A stretch of DNA of 51,442 bases. Source: a virus. The notes beneath the pieces are model-generated. The model was given only the letters and a program-made list of their open reading frames with translations. It made no database searches and was not told the DNA's origin. A program made the position numbers and the translations under genes. Positions 12,484 to 27,695 of this stretch are shown piece by piece (the first letter of the stretch is position 1; each line of letters begins with the position of its first letter). Location of the stretch: IMG/VR virus record IMGVR_UViG_3300029986_000380, positions 1 to 51,442 of that record. One strand, written 5' to 3'.

Positions 12484-12813
12484 TTAACGCAGTGCCCTTG
12501 GTTTGTGACCGTATCTATAAAATGCACCATTGCGCTCCCTGATCATAAAATGTTTGCGTACTACGGCAGGGAAACCTTCAAACACGTCAGGACGAAATGA
12601 AATTTTCATAGTAGTATACAATTTAATAAGTTGTTCCTGTGTAGTCGCACCATCGGGATAAGGAAACGGTTCTTCCTTACCGTCAATCTTTTTAACAAAC
12701 AGTCTTCTTAAAAACTCTATAGTTACAATATTTAAGTCATCCTGTGTTATAGTCTTTTCCGGTAAAAAATCATACGATCCCATGAACATCCCAATTGGTT
12801 TATTTTCAGCCAT
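12484..12813 (-). CDS. Hypothetical protein downstream of the helicase
   Basis: This 109-residue protein is unrecognised. It overlaps the helicase gene's end by 8 nt and has its own AAGGAAG about 6 nt before ATG. No cysteines or membrane segment; the C-terminus is basic (GHKPRALR). Co-expression with gp41-like helicase and gp61-like primase suggests a replication role, such as helicase loading, but no gp59 signature can be claimed. Confidence 0.55.
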   Translation of the reverse strand: MAENKPIGMFMGSYDFLPEKTITQDDLNIVTIEFLRRLFVKKIDGKEEPFPYPDGATTQEQLIKLYTTMKISFRPDVFEGFPAVVRKHFMIRERNGAFYRYGHKPRALR

Positions 12814-14272
12814 TCTTTGCTTCCTTGTTTTGAGCTAGTCTACTTCTAATAGTAGTTATGGTTTTATTTTCGGCGGCGGCAACATTACCTTCAACATTTT
12901 CTTTTGGTTTTTCAACTTTACCATAAAGAAATGGATTTGCTTCCATTAACAGGCTTCTATCACCATTCCCTATTCGTAAAGTAGCAGGATTCCAGTGCAG
13001 CGGGATCGAAGCACCTTCTGCTCTAGAAGATCGCGCCTTAGATATATGCAACCATATGCGTTCTTCCTGTTTGTCTTCTATAGTACGCTTTAATATGAAT
13101 AGGTTATCGGCGGCGTCAACTTTAGATTTACCGCCCGCCACACGTCCTTGCCCGGTTGCCTTTTCTTCATCCTGACCCTTGGTCATTTGTGATGCCGTCC
13201 AAATCACTTTCTTGCAATATTTGTCATGAGCAAAATCGTTCATTTCTTCGGAAACAGCTTTATCTTTGGCAGATACATTATCAGCCTGTATTCCCGGTCG
13301 CATCGCCCAAAACAAATCCATGTAATCGGCGCAAACTACATCATATAAAACTCCATCATGCTCACTAACTTCTTTATGATAGTTTCTCAAGTCGGCTACG
13401 GTAGTACCAGACATATTGTATTTTACAATACGCAGTTTGCCTTCTTTTTTCCCATTACGGTGAACCTGATAAACAACCGAATCGACCTCGGTATAAATTT
13501 TACCCATTGCCGTGTCAGTCATCATAGCGGCGAAACGCTTTGCCAACATTTCCGGTTGAAGCTCAAGGGAGAAATATATAACGTTCTTGCCTCTTCTTAA
13601 TTGATAAATTGCCATATTCTGTAAGAATACCGATTTACCATGTCCAGAAGCAGCCGACACGACATTAACACTCGGTTGTGTAACACCCCCTTCAAGAACT
13701 TCATCTAGAAAATCTAAACCTGTCGCTACCCCATCGTGAGACTTTGACATTTCTATCAAGGTTTCAACGTCTTTATGAAATTCATATCCAAGGTTCTGTT
13801 GAACGCTGGTATTTGAAATAGTCTCAATTGTCTTCATAAAGGACGATAATGTGCCACGATCAATCGCAGTTTGTGACTGCCGAAGTTTATTAATCTGTTC
13901 AGAAGAATCATTTAGAAAATCTATTAACTGCGAATGCCGACAATGATCAACAATAGATGTTACCATGTAATCAGCAATTTCTGCATCGCGGTAATCCTCG
14001 GCAGGGTCAAGCTTAACGCCTGTCTCGCTCCATACTATATTCCTAGTGGGGGCGCGATTCATTTCTAACAGAAATTTATTAATAAACTCGTAAGCTTTCT
14101 GATATTCCCTTGTGAAATATTCCTTCTTTAATATGGGTTGACATTTTCTCAAGATATCGGGATTCGCAACCATGCTCGAAAGCATGATAAACTGATCAAT
14201 TTCAACGGGATCATGCTCTGGAATCTGATCTAAATCGATTTCTGGTGATTTTGCGTGTACGGCTGCTGTCAT
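12806..14272 (-). CDS. 41: DnaB-family replicative helicase (T4 gp41-like)
   Basis: The protein (488 aa) shows DnaB organisation. A helical N-terminal domain (about 20-150) is followed by a linker and a RecA-like domain with Walker A ASGHGKS at 208-214, Walker B VVCADYMDLFW, and the arginine/sensor region near GGKSKVDAADNLFILKR. It unwinds the replication fork 5'-3' and works with the primase encoded just upstream, whose stop it overlaps by ATGA. T4 gp41 is 475 aa, so the length fits. Confidence 0.9.
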   Translation of the reverse strand: MTAAVHAKSPEIDLDQIPEHDPVEIDQFIMLSSMVANPDILRKCQPILKKEYFTREYQKAYEFINKFLLEMNRAPTRNIVWSETGVKLDPAEDYRDAEIADYMVTSIVDHCRHSQLIDFLNDSSEQINKLRQSQTAIDRGTLSSFMKTIETISNTSVQQNLGYEFHKDVETLIEMSKSHDGVATGLDFLDEVLEGGVTQPSVNVVSAASGHGKSVFLQNMAIYQLRRGKNVIYFSLELQPEMLAKRFAAMMTDTAMGKIYTEVDSVVYQVHRNGKKEGKLRIVKYNMSGTTVADLRNYHKEVSEHDGVLYDVVCADYMDLFWAMRPGIQADNVSAKDKAVSEEMNDFAHDKYCKKVIWTASQMTKGQDEEKATGQGRVAGGKSKVDAADNLFILKRTIEDKQEERIWLHISKARSSRAEGASIPLHWNPATLRIGNGDRSLLMEANPFLYGKVEKPKENVEGNVAAAENKTITTIRSRLAQNKEAKNG

Positions 14273-15273
14273 TGTGCTTTTAATTTCAAAGAACTCCTAC
14301 TTCGTATATAGTTCTTTGAAGCTGATGTGACAATGATATCCAAGGTGAACAACGCACCATTCTTTTTGATAGAATCTCCCGCATCTAATAATGAACTACC
14401 CCAATCAGGAACAGCTAATGACCAATTGTTATCAATCGCAATATTAAGAAAGGATTCATATTCTTTTATGCGATGGTCAGGTACTAAAATTATTTCTTTA
14501 CCTGACGCGTTTAATAGGTTTATTTGTTTCTTTGTTAGATGGGACGCTTTAGATGCATAACAATCTAATGCAATAGCGTCTAACGGTGATTCAACTACAA
14601 TTGCTACACCCTCATCATTGTTAAAAATTTTATCTTGATTGAACATAAAGTCCGCAGCACATGTTTGATAGTACCGACCTTTACCGGTTTTTATCTTAAT
14701 ATTACGGCTGGCATAACCAACTACTTTTTCTTTATGAAAAAACGGAATGATAAGATTATTTCTCCATTTAGGTGACCAATAGAAGTTGTAATATTTTGGA
14801 TAGTCAGCCCAACGATCAATCAAATATTCAAAGACTTCCAACGCATCGTGGTTTTTTTCCGCGGCATCGAGCAGCGGGATGGCGCGTTCCGGCAACTCTA
14901 TTTCTGGAAAGTTGGTGACAATCTCTAATTGTTCTTGCCCAATAACATTACCATTCTTATCATGAATTATTTTTCTATTTTGGAATGCCATATCTTTAAG
15001 CGGTAGCTCTCTAATGTCACCACCCAAATCGCTATACAACTTTTTCAATCGACCACTAAAGAAATATCCCGGCGTCCAGCCAGCGCTTTCCACATTAAGT
15101 GCGCAGCCGCCATTTAAGCAAGAAACAAGAAAACCAGCGTTGTCAGTTCGTTTGAACCCACAACGCTGGCGCGTATCTCCGCACTCAGGACAATCTATAT
15201 TGATCCACCCGCGCGCTCTATAATGTTTCCTTGCAACGAATAACTGCTCAAATAAACTTGGTATATTATCCAT
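14269..15273 (-). CDS. 61: DNA primase (T4 gp61-like)
   Basis: An N-terminal zinc-binding region has Cys28, Cys31, Cys38, Cys52 and Cys57 (CPECGD then SCLNGGC). A TOPRIM catalytic core follows, with VVVESPLDAIALD and the acidic strand ILVPDH. Length (334 aa) is close to T4 gp61 (342). It lays RNA primers on the lagging strand and probably forms the primosome with the gp41-like helicase immediately downstream. Its first codons overlap the end of the 2H-like gene; no Shine-Dalgarno is visible, so translation may be coupled. Confidence 0.87.
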   Translation of the reverse strand: MDNIPSLFEQLFVARKHYRARGWINIDCPECGDTRQRCGFKRTDNAGFLVSCLNGGCALNVESAGWTPGYFFSGRLKKLYSDLGGDIRELPLKDMAFQNRKIIHDKNGNVIGQEQLEIVTNFPEIELPERAIPLLDAAEKNHDALEVFEYLIDRWADYPKYYNFYWSPKWRNNLIIPFFHKEKVVGYASRNIKIKTGKGRYYQTCAADFMFNQDKIFNNDEGVAIVVESPLDAIALDCYASKASHLTKKQINLLNASGKEIILVPDHRIKEYESFLNIAIDNNWSLAVPDWGSSLLDAGDSIKKNGALFTLDIIVTSASKNYIRSRSSLKLKAQ

Positions 15274-15805: not shown

Positions 15806-16381
15806 TTAACCTTGAATTAGTGCATCAGTAATAACTAATTGATCCCCACGCTTCATAATATTACTTTCGTGAAAATCAAAATGTAGCCCGGTTCCTTTCG
15901 TGCGTGATCGTAAGTGTTTGGCTAAACTGACAAACGCTGGATTGTTCTTAATCCACTCACCAATTTCTTTATGGTATAAATCTTCATTAAATTTCGGTAA
16001 TCCTATTTTATCACCAAGATATAACTCTGCTTCTACCCACTGCATTGCTTTTAATGCAAAACGGTCCCGTTTGTCAATAGGAAATAGTTTTTCAATTTTC
16101 ACAATACCGGAATTGGGACCATGTAATAAAACCGGTTTAACTTTCGGGATAAAAGGGTTATTCTGATTACACAAACAAAACTCAAAATAGTTAAAATATG
16201 CATCATCATTTTGAAACACTTTTAAAATATAAGGTTTAGTAGGGTGTTCGAATACAACACTACTCGCACCTTCTGACAAGTACTCGTAGTTAAAGAATTT
16301 AAAATAACCAATAATAAGATTTTTATCAAGTATCTCGTTGTTGGCTAACCGTGTTTTTATCTCATTCTTGACCTTAATCAT
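15806..16381 (-). CDS. Mini kinase-like protein, second of a tandem pair
   Basis: This 191-residue protein has the outline of a protein-kinase/aminoglycoside-phosphotransferase fold. It has a glycine loop LSEGASSVVF, an ATP-binding lysine in YILKVF (Lys54), a catalytic loop HFDFHESNIM (Asp169, Asn174) and a metal-binding Asp in VITDAL (Asp186). It stops just after this Asp, so the C-lobe is very short. Its ATG overlaps the stop of the first kinase-like gene (ATGA). The two share the same plan but little identity. The target could be a protein, a nucleoside or an antibiotic-like small molecule; none can be chosen from sequence. Confidence 0.68.
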   Translation of the reverse strand: MIKVKNEIKTRLANNEILDKNLIIGYFKFFNYEYLSEGASSVVFEHPTKPYILKVFQNDDAYFNYFEFCLCNQNNPFIPKVKPVLLHGPNSGIVKIEKLFPIDKRDRFALKAMQWVEAELYLGDKIGLPKFNEDLYHKEIGEWIKNNPAFVSLAKHLRSRTKGTGLHFDFHESNIMKRGDQLVITDALIQG

Positions 16382-16940: not shown

Positions 16941-18410
16941 TTACGCTGCGTAGTGATAGTCAAGCTTAGCATTCTCTCTAACTTGTGCGAAGGTAGAATC
17001 TATCAATAGTTCGCCAGTTTTCCAAACCGGACGAAGTAAATTCCTGCGACCATTCAAATCATCATATTTGATAGTTTCGATGGTGCTTGAACCAATGCCA
17101 CAACTTTCGATAAGGGCAAGACGACCGCCTTTAGAAGTCTTGCCGGTATCGGTCTTGGGGGTCTTACGGATTTCGCGATACTCGATGGTTCCATCAGGAT
17201 TGCGGATTTCAATAAGTCCCGGCTTCTGCGCATAATGCATGGTGTCACGATCAACCTTCATAAGAAGACCGCCGCCCATACCACGAGTAAGGTTATCAGT
17301 GCTGATGCCCGCCGCAATAAGATTGTTATCCAATTGCTCAACCGATTCCAAATTCATTCCATCACCTTGAACAAACCTGAAATAGTTAGGCAGTAATCTA
17401 AACCGTTTCGTGTTTAAAGTGTGTCCAACTTTCTTCATAAGACGATCTATGCCCTCAACAGGAATAGTCGTGGCGTCGCCACTATCAGGACGGACTACAA
17501 TCGTGCCGCCCCAATCCTTCACTCGCTGTAGCAGCCTTTCACCCCAATATTCTTCCACCACGCGAAAGAAATCAAAGCTGTCTGCAACACTGGCGATAAT
17601 TTTATATTTGTCGCCAAATTGATCAATAAGATTGATCAATGCATCGGGTTCTCTAATCTCACCCCAACTAATAGTAGTTGAATGTTCCGTGGCAACAATG
17701 GTATTAGCCGCCATCTGTTCACCATAATAATAATTCGCCATCACGACGCCTTCAACGGTATCGCTTCCCATAAAGTTAACCAAATGCGCCGCGCCACCGA
17801 TCATCGCCTGTTCATGGCAAGAAACGCCACGCGCACCGAAATCATGAAGCTTCCACGGCAAACCATCTAAGTTATCTGCCGAGATTTCCAGACCGCGCCT
17901 GATAACCTTTTTAGCTTCACGCGAAAGAGTCGCAACGGTACTCCCGTACCACACGGCGCGTTGCAAAACCGTTTCGAGGAACGATGGTTGCCAAAAACTT
18001 TCTGGACTATTGTTATAGATTTGAACCTGCACATTGGATTTGGGAACGACCGATCCTTCGGGAATCGCCTCAATGGTGACATCCCAATATCCGTCAGTGC
18101 GATTCACAATGTCCATGAACTTTTCCGTATCAAACGGAACACCATAAAGCTTACAAAAATACTCGGCTTCCTCGACATCTTTCTTCGTTATACGAACGGT
18201 CATATATTCTTTAAGAAAATATTGAAGACCAAAAAAGACGCCCTCGCTAAATTTAGAACCGACGCGCGCCTCGATATAGCTGAATTGCCGCTCAGTGTGT
18301 GGGGGATATTGTCCCCACTTATGCACAGCGCCCGCTGCGGCATGTGAAAATTTATAACCATCCGCCATTAAACAAGGGTTGCGCGGATTAAATCTTACAA
18401 AATGTTTCAT
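16941..18410 (-). CDS. nadV: Nicotinamide phosphoribosyltransferase (NAMPT)
   Basis: At 489 residues it matches full-length NAMPT (human 491 aa). The enzyme joins nicotinamide and PRPP to give nicotinamide mononucleotide. Visible family blocks include DGYKFSHA near the N-terminus, HDFGARGVS, GGAAHLVNFMGSDT, ATEHSTTISWGE, VVRPDSGD and RGMGGGLLMKVDRD. With the NMN adenylyltransferase encoded just upstream it makes a two-step NAD+ salvage route, as in Vibrio phage KVP40 and the NARP2 pathway that offsets NAD+-depleting defences. The RBS is GAAGGAG, and the leader carries a hairpin with a GGAGT loop like that of the neighbouring gene. Confidence 0.96.
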   Translation of the reverse strand: MKHFVRFNPRNPCLMADGYKFSHAAAGAVHKWGQYPPHTERQFSYIEARVGSKFSEGVFFGLQYFLKEYMTVRITKKDVEEAEYFCKLYGVPFDTEKFMDIVNRTDGYWDVTIEAIPEGSVVPKSNVQVQIYNNSPESFWQPSFLETVLQRAVWYGSTVATLSREAKKVIRRGLEISADNLDGLPWKLHDFGARGVSCHEQAMIGGAAHLVNFMGSDTVEGVVMANYYYGEQMAANTIVATEHSTTISWGEIREPDALINLIDQFGDKYKIIASVADSFDFFRVVEEYWGERLLQRVKDWGGTIVVRPDSGDATTIPVEGIDRLMKKVGHTLNTKRFRLLPNYFRFVQGDGMNLESVEQLDNNLIAAGISTDNLTRGMGGGLLMKVDRDTMHYAQKPGLIEIRNPDGTIEYREIRKTPKTDTGKTSKGGRLALIESCGIGSSTIETIKYDDLNGRRNLLRPVWKTGELLIDSTFAQVRENAKLDYHYAA

Positions 18411-18509: not shown

Positions 18510-19598
18510 TCAATCAATATTAACGCCGGTCATTTCTCTAATGATATGGGCGTGGTCGTCGAAGAAATCTCTAGCATCCAGAGAATCCAACGGATACCAC
18601 TGTGCAAATTCCGCATCATCTGCACCAAGCACTTTGAAAGGTTCGTCCCTATCAGGGAAAGTAAACTTATAAGCATTGGTGGTGACTCGCCCTTTTTCAG
18701 AACGCCACGGATCATCGAAAAGTCTAGTCATCTTATCTTCAATATATGCTCCCAAAACTGCTGGCGGCATTTTTCCTCTATTATCCTCTATTTCAGTTTC
18801 CTCCCGCAGTTCCCTAATAATAGCATTACGGAATGTTTCGTCAGGATTGACATGCCCTCCCGGAAGTGCAAGCAAGCCTAAACCGGGACGTTTGCCTCTT
18901 GTTACCAAAAGGATTTGTCCATTTTGAACACATACCGCGTCTACGCAAGGAATAATAACAGGATAGGGGGAATGTTCCCAACTTTTCTTATAATCCCGGT
19001 AATATTCGGCTTCACCCAACAACCATTTGAACTTATCGGTATACATGAATTTTTCCATATAATCGACAACTTCAACCGGGCATACCCGTTCTGGAAAGAT
19101 AGGAGTCCGCTGAAAATAATTATCACGTATTTCCGTTGAATTGAATGTCCCGTGCTGCGATGGCAAGCTGATCAAATCCCACCCATGGAACATTCTCAGG
19201 TATGAAGATGAAGCATCTTTTTCATAACCAATGATTCCAATGTTGAAATCTTTCAACCCATGATTTTGAAATCCATATGCGTTTCCATGATCCAAAATAA
19301 AATTAGTTATAATTTTCCGCGTGTTGATAACCCACGCCTGATCGTTATAAGTAATATCAGGGATTGGTAGAAAATGTATGCGCCCGTCAGCTACCTCTTG
19401 TGGAAACATTCTAGTAAGAACTTCAATACGTTCCTCCGCATAAAGAGGATTTCGGGGGGAACTGGCTCTATTGGGTGAACCAATACCGATCATTACCACT
19501 TCGGATAATTCAAGCGCTGTTTCAATGTTGTGTTTATGTCCCTTATGGGGAAACTGCAATCTGCCGTGAAATAGCACATAGTTGTACTTTTTTGTCAT
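18510..19598 (-). CDS. nadM: Bifunctional NMN adenylyltransferase / Nudix hydrolase
   Basis: The N-terminal half is a nucleotidyltransferase with HKGH at residues 18-21 and the STEIR motif near 154; it converts NMN and ATP to NAD+. The C-terminal half carries a full Nudix box, GGHVNPDETF through REETEIE (about 247-270), which in relatives hydrolyses ADP-ribose or related dinucleotides. Length (362 aa) matches known NadM-Nudix fusions (KVP40 NatV, Synechocystis, Francisella). The RBS is AAAGGAG with 6 nt spacing. A TTGACT/TAAATA promoter about 55 nt upstream should drive this gene and nadV, probably early. Confidence 0.94.
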   Translation of the reverse strand: MTKKYNYVLFHGRLQFPHKGHKHNIETALELSEVVMIGIGSPNRASSPRNPLYAEERIEVLTRMFPQEVADGRIHFLPIPDITYNDQAWVINTRKIITNFILDHGNAYGFQNHGLKDFNIGIIGYEKDASSSYLRMFHGWDLISLPSQHGTFNSTEIRDNYFQRTPIFPERVCPVEVVDYMEKFMYTDKFKWLLGEAEYYRDYKKSWEHSPYPVIIPCVDAVCVQNGQILLVTRGKRPGLGLLALPGGHVNPDETFRNAIIRELREETEIEDNRGKMPPAVLGAYIEDKMTRLFDDPWRSEKGRVTTNAYKFTFPDRDEPFKVLGADDAEFAQWYPLDSLDARDFFDDHAHIIREMTGVNID

Positions 19599-20533: not shown

Positions 20534-20944
20534 ATGATTAAAAATAATGAAGAACTAATGGAAAAAGTAAGAACAAAATATGAGTTCATTACCTTTTTAT
20601 TTTTTAACAATGATATGATGACTTGTGGTGTAGTTCAAAACGAGGCTACTAAAGTAATCATGGTATATGACTTTCTCAAGATCAAAGATGAGAAAGCGCG
20701 TGTTAGATTTCTCGCGCTTGCGGAACGTTGGTGGTGGCAATCAAGCCAAATGGTTCCTATCAATATGTTTATCGGCAGAGAATTTGATGAGTTTTCTTAT
20801 ACCTTAGTAGGATATACCAAAAAGTCATTCGTCAAAGACCCAATTGGACCTATTTTTTCCCTGAATAATTTGTATCTAAAACGCCCAAAAAAGAAACGGA
20901 TCGATCTGGTTAATCGTGCTAAACCACCAACTCAAACTTTATGA
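20534..20944 (+). CDS. Hypothetical late protein
   Basis: This 136-residue protein is not recognised. It has an aromatic stretch ERWWWQSSQMVP in the middle and a basic tail (KRPKKKRIDLVNRAK). Expression is probably from the leaderless-type late element. Its 3' end overlaps the convergent DnaE-like gene by 13 nt. Confidence 0.55.
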   Translation: MIKNNEELMEKVRTKYEFITFLFFNNDMMTCGVVQNEATKVIMVYDFLKIKDEKARVRFLALAERWWWQSSQMVPINMFIGREFDEFSYTLVGYTKKSFVKDPIGPIFSLNNLYLKRPKKKRIDLVNRAKPPTQTL

Positions 20945-21564
20945 TTTAATAATTGAATATGCACCATAATCGCCAGCGCAAATGCTATGGCGTGACTCTT
21001 CTTGAAAAAGTATCCAGTCTCACCATCAATTTTTTCCCATACTAATTCTTTAATTTGGGCAAAAGGCTTACCAATCAGATGCCGTTTCCTCGGACGAATT
21101 AATGCATTCAATATCGCAATGTCTGAAATAGACTTTGGGGGATATCTTTTGCACAGAGAATAATGCCTTGCTAGTTGTGTCAATTGCAATTCATGATTTT
21201 CATTATTATAAAACCGTTCTTCTAAGAAAATCTCCCACGGAAAATTCTCTTCATCTTCGGCAACTTCTATTAATAATTTAAGATGTTCCTCACTGGTTAT
21301 ATCAATATATATATGATATGGAATCAAATCTAGTTTATAATATCCTAAATCCTCGGCAGTTTCATACGGAAATACTGCCAATCCACTTAACGGATCATTA
21401 GGAATATCTTGTAAATATATTCCAGTATTGTGTTTAACTAATTGTTGTTTGTTGTCTATTTGGGAAGCACAGCGAAAGTCTATATATTCTGATAAGACCG
21501 CAAGGCTTCCCCCGCGGTCTTTAACATCAATATCGATATCTGGGATATGTACTATGTCACTCAT
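20932..21564 (-). CDS. Miniature C-family polymerase (DnaE/PolC palm)-like protein
   Basis: The 210-residue protein lines up in order with conserved pieces of bacterial DNA polymerase III alpha. IPDIDIDVKDR (Asp9, 11, 13) matches the PDFDIDF strand with the first two catalytic aspartates. VKHNTGIYL matches the HAGGVVI region, and YYKLDLIPYHI (Asp79) matches the KFDFLGL strand with the third. SDIAILNALIRPRK matches the ALYRPGP block, and FFKKSHAIAFAL (KSH 189-191) matches FNKSHAAAYAL. The fingers, PHP and tau-binding regions are missing, so it is about one fifth of DnaE. It may be a tiny nucleotidyltransferase, a decoy, or a remnant kept for another purpose. The relation is strong by motif order; the function is unknown. 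Confidence 0.7.
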   Translation of the reverse strand: MSDIVHIPDIDIDVKDRGGSLAVLSEYIDFRCASQIDNKQQLVKHNTGIYLQDIPNDPLSGLAVFPYETAEDLGYYKLDLIPYHIYIDITSEEHLKLLIEVAEDEENFPWEIFLEERFYNNENHELQLTQLARHYSLCKRYPPKSISDIAILNALIRPRKRHLIGKPFAQIKELVWEKIDGETGYFFKKSHAIAFALAIMVHIQLLNHKV

Positions 21565-22261
21565 ATCTTTCTAAAATCATTCTCTCGACTTCACGGCTAA
21601 AATTTGGATTTGCTTCTATCTTCTTTTCCCAAACATCGAAACTGTAGACAGAATCAATGTCTTCTAGTAAATTCACTGGAAAATCAGCGTCTCCAATCAT
21701 ATTCAATATGATCGATACAGAAAATACAACCCACGGACGTATATTATAGCTTTTGATCATTTCTGTCAACTGTCCATGAGTTATGGACGTGAAAAAATCA
21801 TTAGGATCAATCTCATTCTTTTCACAATAGTTCTTTATAAAAGCTCTTGTGCTATGGGCTTGTTCCTTGGGAGTTTCGACTAATATAAGAAATTGTCTAA
21901 ACGCATTTAAGTTTTTGGGATTTTTCCAATCCTTTTCTTTTATACTGGCTTCAATTAACCAATCAACATACCGTTGTCCATTAGTAATCTTCTTTTTATC
22001 GAGATATTCATTCAGGTCTTTGAAAATCTGAAAGAACCATGAATTATGAAATTCTTCAAATGTCTTATTTTTACCACGCTTGGTAAAGCCGTTCCGAGCT
22101 TGCCAATAAACGAACAAGTTATATGAATTTATAAGGATATCTTCGCTGGCTTCCCAAAATACTTTTGATTTCTTACACTTATGCTTTTTGAACCAGTTTT
22201 CTCTGTCATATGATTTATTACAAAACTGACATTTGAAAACCTTTGGTAGTGTTGAAGTCAT
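21557..22261 (-). CDS. C2H2 zinc-finger hypothetical protein
   Basis: Starting at the ATG at 22261, which overlaps the upstream stop as ATGA, the protein has 234 residues. It opens with a single zinc finger, FKCQFCNKSYDRENWFKKHKC (a C2HC/C2H2 arrangement, about 9-29). The rest is helical and aromatic, with no known motif. The open frame extends to 22366 but that part only overlaps the previous gene. It sits between the DnaE-like protein and the UvsW cluster, so a DNA transaction role is plausible. Confidence 0.62.
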   Translation of the reverse strand: MTSTLPKVFKCQFCNKSYDRENWFKKHKCKKSKVFWEASEDILINSYNLFVYWQARNGFTKRGKNKTFEEFHNSWFFQIFKDLNEYLDKKKITNGQRYVDWLIEASIKEKDWKNPKNLNAFRQFLILVETPKEQAHSTRAFIKNYCEKNEIDPNDFFTSITHGQLTEMIKSYNIRPWVVFSVSIILNMIGDADFPVNLLEDIDSVYSFDVWEKKIEANPNFSREVERMILERYE

Positions 22262-22746
22262 ACCATTTCCGAGAATAGTTTTGTGTATACCTTCTGTTCT
22301 TTCTGTTGAAAACCCAAACGGTCTAACACCTGCTGAAATTCCTTGACATTCAATCTTTTGCACCACGTAAATACCTCTTCATTGTTAATATCTGGTTCTA
22401 TTTGCGAGAACACGTCGATTCTTAATTTATCAACAGTCCTGCTTTTCTTATTGTAAAAAACATGCTTGCTACTACGCCCAATTCCGGCGACCGCCAACAG
22501 CTTTGTTTGTAACATAGGATGATCAGCCAGATAAAACCATGCTTGATTTACGATATCATTAAACTTGACAGTGGCGATTATATGGTTCTCATTATTAAAA
22601 TGCCCCGTAAACCACACCGGTAATACGAATGATATTAACTTATCATATTCTTCCTTCAAATCAGGATCATCAGCGAACGACTCATATAGAGCCAATTCGT
22701 TCGTATCAAGGTACTTCAGCACCTGAAACAAATCAATGTTAGACAC
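22258..22746 (-). CDS. Hypothetical protein of the replication cluster
   Basis: This 162-residue protein starts with GTG (AGGAG about 8 nt upstream) and overlaps both neighbours. It contains NQAWFYLADHPMLQTKLL and a basic/aromatic stretch KHVFYNKKSR. I considered a clamp-loader small subunit (gp62), but the typical gp62 blocks are not evident, so it is left unnamed. Tight coupling with UvsW-side genes suggests work on DNA. Confidence 0.55.
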   Translation of the reverse strand: MSNIDLFQVLKYLDTNELALYESFADDPDLKEEYDKLISFVLPVWFTGHFNNENHIIATVKFNDIVNQAWFYLADHPMLQTKLLAVAGIGRSSKHVFYNKKSRTVDKLRIDVFSQIEPDINNEEVFTWCKRLNVKEFQQVLDRLGFQQKEQKVYTKLFSEMV

Positions 22747-23248
22747 CCCAAATATCTCCTATAGGACGCGTCACGTCTAGTTTATGTGGCGTCATGATAA
22801 CACATATAGGACCCTTATCCTTAGTTTCATTAGGTTTCTTTACAACACCTAATGGTAAAAGGATCAAATCCTTTTCTTTTATGGGTGGACAACTCCAAGG
22901 ATTGATCGGAAAAATATTATTAATTCTAATCGGATAGTATTGTGGTAAAAAACCATCAATCGGATTAATACAAAATGCCAAAATCGACCGTCCGCTCGTA
23001 TCAGCAATCGGCATCATTTCCACATATTCATGATCACTAACCATTATCGACCAGTGATAAGGAACCACTGTTTTAAATGGACCTATTTCAATCTCCAAAC
23101 TGGCGCTTTCAAAAACTTCAATCTCAGTTAATTTTTGAAAGTAAACGTCAGGCTGACGATAATCTTTAAATGATAAGACAGAATAATAACATTCTTCATT
23201 AATGATGTCAGTATCTAAAACTTTATTTTCTTCATTCAATATCAACAT
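22739..23248 (-). CDS. Hypothetical protein coupled to UvsW
   Basis: This 169-residue beta-rich protein, rich in Pro and Ile, is not recognised. It has WSCPPI and two lone cysteines but no zinc pattern. Its start lies inside the last codons of uvsW (17-nt overlap) and has no Shine-Dalgarno, so translation probably depends on ribosomes finishing uvsW. Confidence 0.55.
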   Translation of the reverse strand: MLILNEENKVLDTDIINEECYYSVLSFKDYRQPDVYFQKLTEIEVFESASLEIEIGPFKTVVPYHWSIMVSDHEYVEMMPIADTSGRSILAFCINPIDGFLPQYYPIRINNIFPINPWSCPPIKEKDLILLPLGVVKKPNETKDKGPICVIMTPHKLDVTRPIGDIWGV

Positions 23249-24704
23249 AATCTACATCCAATACTTCAACTGTTTGTCTAGCATCTTTAAAATGCTTATA
23301 TCGTTCTTTTCCGTGTTTTTTTGAAAAGCCGTCATCACCATAAAGATCATACATATCGATAAAGTCTTTGTCACTTGCTTTTCTGACTCCACGTCCAAGA
23401 GCCTGAATTATTTTATGAAATTTCTTACCCGGTTCAAGGACAAACAAATGAAATATTCTAGGAATATCCAATCCTGTGGACGCAATTCCCATAGTGGCAA
23501 TTAATATGTTACCGTCCGTGTTGGCAAACTTATCATATTCTTCTTTCCTAAATTCTGTTTTATCCCTACCATCAATCGACACTGCATTGGGTATTAATTC
23601 TTCTAATTTTTTACCCATTTCTCTAAACTGTACTAACACCAAGGTATTACCGTCTAATGATACTCTTTGTATTTCATTGGCAATATATTGAAGTCTCTTC
23701 TGATCAGAATACAAGAAGTTAACTTGTTCATTCCAATCTTCAAACCCGATAACCTCATCGCCTTGATCATTTAGGCGCTTTTCAGTTATATATTTCCGGT
23801 ATCTTGGGTTCTTGGTGTCTTTTAAAACAATCTGATGAATAAGCGCATTTGCCAGTATACCTCTTTTTTGCAATTCCCACGTCGCAAGAGTGAAGAGGAT
23901 TGGACCAATAGAAGCCAATAACTGATATCGAAAAATATCTTCTTTTGGCACTGTACCAGTACATCCGATACGGAAGGGAACATTTGCACCGGGACCATTT
24001 AAAATAGTGCTGATCGTCTTGCCTGTTCCTAGATGGGCTTCATCTAGGACAAATCCTATAACGTCCGAAAATAATTCAGGATGTCCTTCAAGGGATTGCC
24101 ATGTAGATATCGTGACATGACGCCGGTCCTTAGCTTCTCCATACCAAATGCCAGTATCGATTCCGACCTGTTTAAATACAAATTGGGTCTGTATAACAAG
24201 ATCAATATTAGGCACAATAAATATAACATTTCCATGGGGCATTAAACATTTAGCCATAGCTGCACACGTTAAGGTCTTACCAGAACCCACACTCATCTCT
24301 AATAGACCCTTACCCTCTGTAAGGGCTAATGTGGCTCCATTAATTTGATAGTCTCTCAGTATGACAGACTCGCCCTTAATCTCATATTGAGAGAACATAT
24401 CGGCGGTGGGTAAATCGATTACTACGTGGGAAAAATCTCTTCTCTGATCATCAACATCAAAGGTATATCCACTATTTTCAAAAACGTGGAAGATATCTGG
24501 CAACAGATTAAGACAAGTTTTACCCGTCATAGATAACAAACGAATCTTCCCATCCCATCGTCCCATTCTATACGTTGGTGTAAACATATAATTTGGAACA
24601 TAGAAGGTGAGAAGATTCGCCGCTTCTTTTAATGTATTTTGATCTACATTTTTTATACGGATATTAACTTCATCTTTAATTTCAATTAACGCAATTTTAC
24701 TCAT
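23232..24704 (-). CDS. uvsW: SF2 DNA/RNA helicase UvsW-like
   Basis: The 490-residue protein has a small N-terminal domain (about 1-90), then a two-lobed SF2 helicase. It shows Walker A SVGSGKT at 138-144, a DEAH box in VLDEAHLGTG, FRIGCTGT, and the C-lobe motifs IATMGIASTGLDIP and QALGRGVRKA. T4 UvsW (503 aa) remodels R-loops, D-loops and stalled forks and drives the switch from origin- to recombination-dependent replication. It is followed upstream by UvsY and UvsX, as expected for a recombination operon. Confidence 0.9.
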   Translation of the reverse strand: MSKIALIEIKDEVNIRIKNVDQNTLKEAANLLTFYVPNYMFTPTYRMGRWDGKIRLLSMTGKTCLNLLPDIFHVFENSGYTFDVDDQRRDFSHVVIDLPTADMFSQYEIKGESVILRDYQINGATLALTEGKGLLEMSVGSGKTLTCAAMAKCLMPHGNVIFIVPNIDLVIQTQFVFKQVGIDTGIWYGEAKDRRHVTISTWQSLEGHPELFSDVIGFVLDEAHLGTGKTISTILNGPGANVPFRIGCTGTVPKEDIFRYQLLASIGPILFTLATWELQKRGILANALIHQIVLKDTKNPRYRKYITEKRLNDQGDEVIGFEDWNEQVNFLYSDQKRLQYIANEIQRVSLDGNTLVLVQFREMGKKLEELIPNAVSIDGRDKTEFRKEEYDKFANTDGNILIATMGIASTGLDIPRIFHLFVLEPGKKFHKIIQALGRGVRKASDKDFIDMYDLYGDDGFSKKHGKERYKHFKDARQTVEVLDVDYVDIE

Positions 24705-24710
24705 TATGAG

Positions 24711-25301
24711 TTAGATATGCGTTTCTTTCGAAGAATCAATCCATACTTCTTCTAACTTATTAACTCTTATGTCTTTAATGTTGTTTAGAGTATATTTTCG
24801 GTCCTCAAAAAACTGACAAACATTATCTAAAGATTTTTTATAATATTCAAATAATCTTGTCCATTCTTCAAGCACCAACACTTGTTCATCTGACGCCGCC
24901 AATTTTTGAAGCTCTGTTGTTTTCATTCCTTCAAATTTCGGATCGGCGGCATACTCATGGTATTTCTTTTTAGTAAGAGATTCCTTCCTATCAATAAACA
25001 GCCGCTCTAGCATTTGGGCGTCAATTGTTATTTGACGGTACCAGTGCGCTAGACCGGGAGTTTCTAATAGAAGTGTCTCCAAAGCCCCGATGAGGCTGAT
25101 ATGTTTCTTACTATCCTGTAACACCGTTTTATAATATTCAATTGCCTGTGGGGCAATCTTCATATCATTCTTAACAGCTTCAAACCATCCCTCGCCTCTG
25201 ATTTCTGCTTTAGGCGGGGGAGCGGGGGACGTGGTAGCTTGAATAGGGGCGTTAGCCCCCGTTCTAGCATTTTCTCTTATCTTTGATACAGATATTACCA
25301 T
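24711..25301 (-). CDS. uvsY: UvsY-like recombination mediator
   Basis: The C-terminal two thirds (about 50-190) share the UvsY pattern. It has a helical segment with a YY.TVL..SKKH start, a central K-rich part, LVLEEWTRLFEYYKKSLDNV, and an end resembling IKxIKDMR (LNNIKDIRVNKLEE). UvsY loads UvsX recombinase onto gp32-coated single strands. At 196 aa it is longer than T4 UvsY (137 aa), owing to a Pro/Ala-rich N-terminal tail. Its ATG overlaps the uvsX stop (TAATG), and the gene lies between uvsX and uvsW, which supports the call. Confidence 0.77.
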   Translation of the reverse strand: MVISVSKIRENARTGANAPIQATTSPAPPPKAEIRGEGWFEAVKNDMKIAPQAIEYYKTVLQDSKKHISLIGALETLLLETPGLAHWYRQITIDAQMLERLFIDRKESLTKKKYHEYAADPKFEGMKTTELQKLAASDEQVLVLEEWTRLFEYYKKSLDNVCQFFEDRKYTLNNIKDIRVNKLEEVWIDSSKETHI

Positions 25302-26476
25302 TATTCTAATTCCTCTGCTATTTCTGCTAAGGTTGATGAAATTGGTGCTTCCGCCCCACTACCAATGTCTGCATCAGCAATTTCCATAAGATGATCAGCA
25401 TGAGCCATGAAATTACCCTTTTGAAACTTAACAATTTCTCCATTTTTAGTTGGATCAGTGTATTCATACCAGCCTTGCGAGCTTACCTTGAAAACACCTT
25501 CTTGCATCAAGACTTCAAATAGTCCAGAGTAAGGGTCTAATCCTGTTCCATAAGGAATTTGAATATCAACTCTTTCGAATGGTTTAGACACCCGTGACTT
25601 GATAATTTCCATGGTACACTGAATGCCCACAACATCAGAAGAACGCTTTAACACGTCTTTGCTCATGTCACCACGCTTGCTTTCAATAGCTTTTTTATTA
25701 TCCTTATTATCAAGATCATCTAATTTTAACTGTTTTTTAGTTAGCATAAGACAGCCAGAAGCCATATAAACGAGTTTATTACCGCCGGTAGTTTTATGCT
25801 TAGGACCGTAACCATCTTGGTTATCCATTATGTGTTGAACGCCGACGCATAATAGTTTTTTACCGGCGACTAAGTGAGTTATAGAAATAATAAGATCGCC
25901 AACCTGTTTGGCTTTTTGACCCATATCACCCACAACTTTACCGATATCCTTACCAGCAATTTTATCAAACTGCGATTCGGTCATTAGTGCAGCATAAGAA
26001 TCTACGACAAATACTATAGGAGGCAAATCGTCGCCCTCGTTATTATCAATAGCTTCTTGATACTGTTTTGCAGTTTTTGCAATAACAGTCTTAACTTCTT
26101 CAATCGTCGCGGCGGAAATATATTGTAGGTTGTCTAAATCCATACCAGCTTTAGCAAGCCACTTCTTCCCCTCGGTGTCATCAGTAGCATGTTCTATGTC
26201 CATCCAAATAACATATGCGCCGTGCTGGCGTTGTGCATCAGCGGCGGTTATTGCCGCCATCAACGACTTACCACTACCAGATTCACCATAAAATATATAG
26301 GAACGTCCAAATAGAAGTCCTTTAGTGAATTGTCCAGACCAAAGTCTATTCATAGCAAAGTTTTTACAACTACACCATAAATCGATATGCGAAAACCCCA
26401 ATCTAAAAGATGGGGTGCTGATAGTGGATAATGTTTTTAGTAATTTATCTTTAAATCCTGAAGCCTTTTTAGCCAT
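25301..26476 (-). CDS. uvsX: RecA-family recombinase UvsX-like
   Basis: This 391-residue RecA-fold protein has Walker A GESGSGKS at 64-71, Walker B IVFVVDSYAAL, and GVQHIMDNQDGYGPKHKTTGGNK in the L2/DNA-binding region, matching T4 UvsX (391 aa, same length). It forms filaments on single-stranded DNA and drives strand invasion for recombination-dependent replication. The RBS AAAAGGGA lies 7 nt before ATG. A hairpin (26508-26533) separates it from the gp32-like gene upstream. Confidence 0.91.
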   Translation of the reverse strand: MAKKASGFKDKLLKTLSTISTPSFRLGFSHIDLWCSCKNFAMNRLWSGQFTKGLLFGRSYIFYGESGSGKSLMAAITAADAQRQHGAYVIWMDIEHATDDTEGKKWLAKAGMDLDNLQYISAATIEEVKTVIAKTAKQYQEAIDNNEGDDLPPIVFVVDSYAALMTESQFDKIAGKDIGKVVGDMGQKAKQVGDLIISITHLVAGKKLLCVGVQHIMDNQDGYGPKHKTTGGNKLVYMASGCLMLTKKQLKLDDLDNKDNKKAIESKRGDMSKDVLKRSSDVVGIQCTMEIIKSRVSKPFERVDIQIPYGTGLDPYSGLFEVLMQEGVFKVSSQGWYEYTDPTKNGEIVKFQKGNFMAHADHLMEIADADIGSGAEAPISSTLAEIAEELE

Positions 26477-26552: not shown

Positions 26553-27695
26553 TTATCGAGCAGCGGCTGCTTTATGTTTCGCAGTCAATGCCGCAACGCG
26601 CGAACGCACGTCATTGGGAGCCGATGTGGTAGCTGGTTGATCTTCATCAATCACCCCATCTTCATCATGGACTATCGCAGGTTTTACCGTAGTACGGTTC
26701 TTCATTATATTTTCCACCCCCGCCGAAGAGACGGTTGCGCGACCAGATTCAGCAATAGCTGGTTGGCTATCGCTTTCCTCAGAGGAAGCAGCAGTATCAG
26801 GACGCCAAGCTTTAATTCCGGCTTCTTCCCATTCAGGGTTCCACCGTCCTTCATCACGACCAAAGGCGCGATCAAGCGATACCTTCATCATTTCCGCATA
26901 AATCACAAACTGTTCATCAGACGGACGTTCCGGCAATCTTGCACGTAAGTCATGCATACCATATTCCAAAATCAACGCTAGTTGCTCATCAGGCATACGA
27001 TGCATTCTAGGAAGAAACTGGGAAGATGAATAATTATTATAATCACCTTGTGCCGTAACAGAAATTCTAAATTCTGCACAGTCGAAAGCGCTCATCATGT
27101 CCGCAGGAAAGCTTCCATCAAAATATGCCTTGATATCTTCCACTTCATACGAACCCATAGGAGTGCTATCACCATAATCTCCCTTTTCGAGGGCGGTTTC
27201 AATTGGTGTATGAGCCTGTTTCTTAAACGGGAAAACTCTGATCGGATTCTCAGGAATGTTTTCCTCATCTTCTCTAAAGTCAGACTTGTTAACAAACCCC
27301 TGATAATAATAAGTAGGCTTAATCCAATGCTCACCAGCAATCTTTTTAACTATCTCGCCTTGCTTGGATTGACCACTCTTTGAAAGAACCTCCGCTTCCT
27401 TATAAAGGGCGCGAACAGGATTAAGAGTTCCACACTTAACATTAAGTTCATACATTTCGATAGTCGGAGCATTGACATACACAAATGCGGAATCGTCTTC
27501 TGGATCAACGAACTTCATTGGAACCAGTTTCTTAACAGTAAAAAATTTATGAGTAACCGGGTCTAACCACGGAATAAGCTGGATTTCAGCATTCTTACCT
27601 TTTTTCAGGTTCCAAAAGGGGAAAACCGAATTGTCTTTAACAAAGGTAGTCTTCTTAGCAGTTTCTTCACGATATTTTCTTACATCAATAACCAT
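26553..27695 (-). CDS. 32: Single-stranded DNA-binding protein, T4 gp32-like
   Basis: The 380-residue protein has a basic N-terminal arm (MVIDVRKYREETAKK), then FPFWNLKKGKNAEIQLIPW, the start of the gp32 OB core. After the core comes a disordered acidic-to-neutral tail (about 290-380). The zinc cysteines of T4 gp32 are absent, as in several distant relatives. The extreme C-terminus is basic/Ala-rich (AALTAKHKAAAAR) rather than acidic, which is unusual because the T4 acidic tail binds partner proteins. Its place directly upstream of uvsX supports the call. The leader contains a 14-nt direct repeat that could serve autoregulation. Confidence 0.78.
   Translation of the reverse strand: MVIDVRKYREETAKKTTFVKDNSVFPFWNLKKGKNAEIQLIPWLDPVTHKFFTVKKLVPMKFVDPEDDSAFVYVNAPTIEMYELNVKCGTLNPVRALYKEAEVLSKSGQSKQGEIVKKIAGEHWIKPTYYYQGFVNKSDFREDEENIPENPIRVFPFKKQAHTPIETALEKGDYGDSTPMGSYEVEDIKAYFDGSFPADMMSAFDCAEFRISVTAQGDYNNYSSSQFLPRMHRMPDEQLALILEYGMHDLRARLPERPSDEQFVIYAEMMKVSLDRAFGRDEGRWNPEWEEAGIKAWRPDTAASSEESDSQPAIAESGRATVSSAGVENIMKNRTTVKPAIVHDEDGVIDEDQPATTSAPNDVRSRVAALTAKHKAAAAR

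Follow-up and report, generated by a model that had tools for sequence, protein, structure and literature searches.

The ORF encoded on the minus strand at positions 20932-21564 of the viral stretch analyzed here (IMG/VR record IMGVR_UViG_3300029986_000380, 51,442 nucleotides, hereafter the window) very probably corresponds to the C-terminal unit of a split minimal DNA polymerase III alpha, referred to below as the C-half. Its homology to DnaE, the C-family polymerase of bacteria, is real. The partner unit, or N-half, is encoded by a distant gene in related phages, and the two halves carry complementary motifs of a single palm.

The ATG of the ORF overlaps the stop codon of the upstream gene and its 3' end lies 13 bases inside a convergent ORF. 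The initial annotation, made from the sequence alone, had described at these very coordinates a 210-residue protein showing five DnaE motifs in the right order and all three catalytic aspartates, and both observations held. The ORF is present as described and its motifs (Table 1) include ALIRPRK at residues 154-160 and KSHAIAF at residues 189-195. Residues D9, D11, D13, H45, G48, K77, D79, I156, R157, P158, K160 and H191 did not vary across an alignment of 74 diverse sequences, nor across another of 20 that contains named phages, the E. coli equivalents being assigned by means of anchor motifs. Among them, D9, D11 and D79 correspond to E. coli D401, D403 and D555, the metal ligands that are absolutely conserved across the C-family (PMC3919608), and H191 to H760, the proposed steric gate against ribonucleotides (PMC8485763). 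The DnaE motif order, a pattern chosen post hoc, was regained in none of 200,000 residue shuffles of the protein. A chance match of motifs was ruled out by the identity of the motif residues in the 74 and the 20 sequences.

Table 1. Polymerase half, its motifs and the T4-type replication and recombination genes of the window
Feature	Position	Strand	Remarks
C-terminal (Mg2+/template-binding) subunit of split minimal DNA polymerase III alpha (very probable)	20932..21564	-	210 aa; PHROG 11778 5e-46
PDIDID motif, residues 8-13	21526..21543	-	D9 = E. coli D401, D11 = D403, D13 = D405
HNTG motif, residues 45-48	21421..21432	-	= DnaE HAAG/HAGG (H511..G514); hhalign; H and G invariant
KLD motif, residues 77-79	21328..21336	-	K77 = K553, D79 = third catalytic Asp D555; hhalign; K and D invariant
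IRPRK, residues 156-160	21085..21099	-	= fingers motif ALxRPG (R639, P640); hhalign; I, R, P, K invariant
KKSHAIAF, residues 188-195	20980..21003	-	= fingers O-helix NKSHAxxY; H191 = steric-gate H760; H191 invariant
gp41-like DnaB helicase	12806..14272	-	phrog_19 2e-54; PF03796
gp61-like primase	14269..15273	-	phrog_47 1.7e-21
UvsW-like helicase	23232..24704	-	phrog_16 4.8e-60
UvsY-like mediator	24711..25301	-	phrog_231 0.0016 and position between uvsW and uvsX
UvsX-like recombinase	25301..26476	-	phrog_97 5.8e-52
gp32-like single-strand binding protein	26553..27695	-	phrog_1192 1.5e-14

Single-sequence searches of the window protein (Pfam, NCBIfam and phmmer against the PDB) gave weak or no DnaE matches, so that profile-profile and fold comparisons were required to establish the homology. 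The fingers family PF17657 matched residues 136-160 weakly and TIGR00594 gave a segment match (731-758) at the KSHA region. The phage profile PHROG 11778, annotated as DNA polymerase and 197 positions long, matched residues 9-208 with an E-value of 5e-46, and a profile-profile alignment with eight cellular DnaE proteins reached an E-value of 2.8e-6 (probability 88). An AlphaFold2 model based on the alignment of 74 sequences had a pLDDT of 90.4 and a pTM of 0.81. When this model was compared with the PDB using Foldseek, ranks 1 to 11 were all DNA polymerase III alpha chains, the best being the DNA-bound structure 4iqj (E-value 1.7e-3, probability 1.00, TM-score 0.44 on the query). Foldseek E-values never passed 1e-3 and TM-scores were modest (0.30-0.45) for both halves, probably, at least in part, because each half is a small, trimmed piece of a large chain. 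The initial annotation had proposed structure prediction and a search for homologues as checks; the fold obtained is DnaE-like, and the related phage proteins found (74 sequences) all retain the three aspartates.

The window protein lacks large parts of DnaE. The distance from D13 to H45 is 32 residues as compared with 106 in E. coli, which implies that the thumb is gone, and that from P158 to K189 is about 30 residues as compared with 118, which implies the loss of the part of the fingers bearing YQEQVM and RRAMGKK. RRAMGKK contacts the dNTP phosphates in Pol III ternary structures. With this stretch and the whole thumb absent, the grip on dNTP and DNA must differ from that of DnaE. No Pfam match to PHP or tandem HhH domains was detected in the 210-residue protein, and the clamp-binding and later domains are absent as well; PHP and tandem HhH domains are nearly universal in C-family polymerases (PMC3919608). 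The absence of fingers, PHP and clamp-binding regions claimed earlier was thus correct for the last two, whereas the fingers are reduced and not absent, IRP and KSHA being fingers motifs that were kept. Two further losses, the thumb and the GRGS segment, had not been named. The nucleotidyltransferase fold of DnaE has its GRGS segment immediately ahead of DxDxD; the window protein begins at the DxDxD strand without this preceding NTP-binding segment, and the polymerase core is therefore incomplete in one chain.

The missing segment is found in another phage protein family. A second short "DNA polymerase III alpha" has been described in phage CBB as CBB_328 (PMC5259590), which belongs to PHROG 11127. 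Proteins of this N-half family conserve GxGRGSSVxS (GRGSSVxS in 47 sequences) and pass the cut-off of Pfam PF07733 over profile positions 19-95 of 260 only. Their profile aligned with DnaE with an E-value of 3.3e-10, and this alignment stopped at E. coli N393, D401 being eight residues further on. The best 14 PDB matches of the N-half model were all Pol III alpha or PolC. The C-halves of phages XacN1 and CM1 start with Met-Asp directly at the DxDxD motif. The end of the N-half at N393 and the start of some C-halves at DxDxD indicate a single palm split in a loop that spans E. coli residues 393 to about 400.

We looked for both halves in phage records and in IMG/VR. Based on tblastn searches, the C-half occurs in 63 phage records, mostly RaK2-, PA5oct- and Atu_ph07-like giants, and at least 457 IMG/VR stretches are related to it. 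The N-half was present in all 17 named C-half phages tested (RaK2 being counted through its IMG/VR copy) and in the three other IMG/VR contigs of at least 357 kb bearing a C-half; of the shorter contigs with a C-half, which range from 37 to 93 kb (the window has 51 kb), only one carries it. Conversely, of the 13 contigs of at least 200 kb detected by their N-half, 11 also carry a C-half; the other two measure 203 kb and 359 kb. The 359-kb one, an IMG/VR contig, carries the N-half and a family B polymerase (PolB) with no detectable C-half, and may be either an incomplete contig or a case of real loss. The genes of the two halves are separated by 11 to 224 kb, and none of 220 loci showed them fused or within about 12 kb. 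Apart from a 37-kb fragment, all 25 relatives tested had PolB. In Alishewanella phage Slicko01, both halves lie 11 kb apart and PolB is also present in a genome of 141 kb, well below the 200-kb jumbo limit. Several phage records, GAP32_282 and its relatives, annotate the C-half as a putative membrane protein, probably because its hydrophobic C-terminal helix was taken as a transmembrane segment.

Neither an N-half (tblastn with CBB_328 and profiles) nor a PolB gene was found in the 51-kb window, and the window has no nucleotide similarity to phage records. A contig with an identical C-half protein led us to look in IMG/VR for the N-half of the same phage, and none appeared among the matches listed from the sample of that contig. 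The partner gene of the window phage presumably lies outside the 51-kb fragment. C-half matches were also obtained in ten bacterial or archaeal MAGs, e.g. of a Natrialbaceae archaeon. A cellular origin of these genes was considered and rejected: in at least four of the nine C-half MAGs searched, other contigs carry ORFs of about 175 aa that resemble the N-half, which suggests that the C-half contigs are phage contigs binned by mistake.

The C-half gene of the window is surrounded by homologues of uvsX, uvsY, uvsW, gp32, gp61 and gp41 (Table 1), so that, with the conserved aspartates and the DnaE-like predicted fold, its earlier description as a minimal C-family-like domain inside a T4-type replication cluster remains accurate. 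The convergent ORF that overlaps its 3' end (20534-20944, plus strand) belongs to PHROG 11637, and a convergent hypothetical gene directly follows the C-half in nearly all named relatives. Directly upstream, overlapping the C-half start, there is a C2H2-finger-like protein of PHROG 11058 (21557-22366, minus strand); a C2H2 protein occupies this place in phage PAC2 too. Elsewhere in the window, a small protein (15806-16381, minus strand) matches the C-terminal part of the profile of PHROG 15752 (protein kinase / inhibitor of host transcription, 3.4e-13) and has no Pfam match. A nicotinamide phosphoribosyltransferase gene (16941-18410, minus strand; PF18127 and PF04095) adjoins one for a NadM-like cytidylyltransferase-Nudix protein (18510-19598, minus strand), the two forming an NAD+ salvage cassette. 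Such cassettes are reported to counter NAD-depleting defences.

The C-half is best explained as the C-terminal subunit of a two-gene minimal C-family polymerase whose palm is interrupted in the loop connecting GRGS to the DxDxD strand. GRGS would come from the partner protein, made from its distant gene, and the C-half would bring the three metal-binding aspartates, the K553 equivalent and the reduced fingers with the steric-gate histidine. Both halves would associate into one nucleotidyl-transfer site adding dNTPs to a primer, probably for short stretches of synthesis at low processivity, in repair or in the handling of gaps or primers, next to the family B replicase and UvsXYW. We consider that the pair probably has template-directed polymerase activity, and the most likely role of the C-half is that of a putative subunit of a heterodimeric accessory polymerase acting beside PolB.

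The assembled halves could instead be a nucleotidyltransferase other than a DNA polymerase, for example a terminal transferase or one modifying proteins or nucleotides. The loss of the thumb, the clamp-binding region and part of the fingers, with the shortened gap between RP and KSHA weakening the hold on DNA and dNTP, is consistent with such an enzyme, as is the family B replicase already found in every large relative tested. However, the fingers motifs specific to DnaE (IRP and the steric-gate histidine) are as invariant as the aspartates, which fits dNTP selection, and the C-half gene lies among replication and recombination genes both in the window and in named phages; we regard this alternative as unlikely. 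It is very unlikely that the protein is a relic that has lost catalysis and persists in a structural or regulatory role, for instance as a decoy for host Pol III. The drastic loss of domains and a 210-residue chain that ends just after KSHA, without a clamp-binding region, would suit a relic, but the catalytic, dNTP-selecting and GRGS residues of both halves are strictly invariant among sequences with about 30-45% identity to the reference, and dead enzymes are expected to lose such residues first. That the C-half alone is a self-sufficient minimal nucleotidyltransferase, novel or of repurposed fold, as the initial annotation had put forward, is most improbable despite the confident single-chain fold prediction and the presence of all three metal-binding aspartates, and was rejected because the chain holds one half of the nucleotidyltransferase core only: the GRGS segment, needed to complete the fold and to bind the phosphates of the NTP, sits in the separate N-half gene carried by every large genome tested that has the C-half.

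If active as a split polymerase, the pair would be an unusually small C-family enzyme, with about 380 residues over two chains and an active site assembled in trans. It would show the minimum needs of DnaE and the reason for which a polymerase of bacterial type is retained by a phage that has a family B replicase. The conserved residues listed above make its activity directly testable.

The split arrangement is already published, which limits the discovery value of the window; what the window adds is a new and divergent member. Iyer et al. 2021 (PMC7824862) independently described, for jumbo phages of group 2.2, a "split minimal DNA polymerase III alpha" that agrees with the pair seen in the relatives of the window protein: the protein family is the same, it is divided into an NTP-binding N-terminal protein and a Mg2+/template-binding C-terminal one, the genes lie far apart and PolB is co-resident. 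The assignment of PHROG 11778 (e.g. CBB gp287, RaK2 ORF124) to their C-terminal unit and of PHROG 11127 (CBB_328) to the N-terminal one was made in this analysis. A survey of marine jumbo phages published in 2022 reported PF07733, the Pfam family matched by the N-half, as the only cluster-specific gene in over half of cluster PGC_A (PMC9123017). Our literature search found no functional study of the split polymerase. The window protein differs from the other members by its divergence (about 28-42% identity) and short insertions, and the family extends from jumbo phages to the smaller Slicko01. Iyer et al. (PMC7824862) propose an ancestral reading of the split form; that a minimal stage of the C-family survives in it, as an obligate heterodimer without PHP and thumb active beside PolB, and that it is not a worn-down DnaE, seems to us quite doubtful.

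In comparison with bacterial DnaE, the window protein shares the equivalents of D401/D403/D405, K553, D555, H511xxG514, R639-P640 and KSH760 of the E. coli enzyme and a predicted palm and fingers fold, whereas it lacks the PHP, thumb, clamp-binding, OB and C-terminal domains and the YQEQVM and RRAMGKK stretch of the fingers, and its palm is distributed over two genes. The full-length DnaE/PolC proteins of phages such as those of Mycobacterium, Streptomyces and Pseudomonas have the same C-family catalytic core, yet each is a single long polypeptide that matches E. coli DnaE over most of its length, while the split form consists of two short proteins accompanied by PolB.
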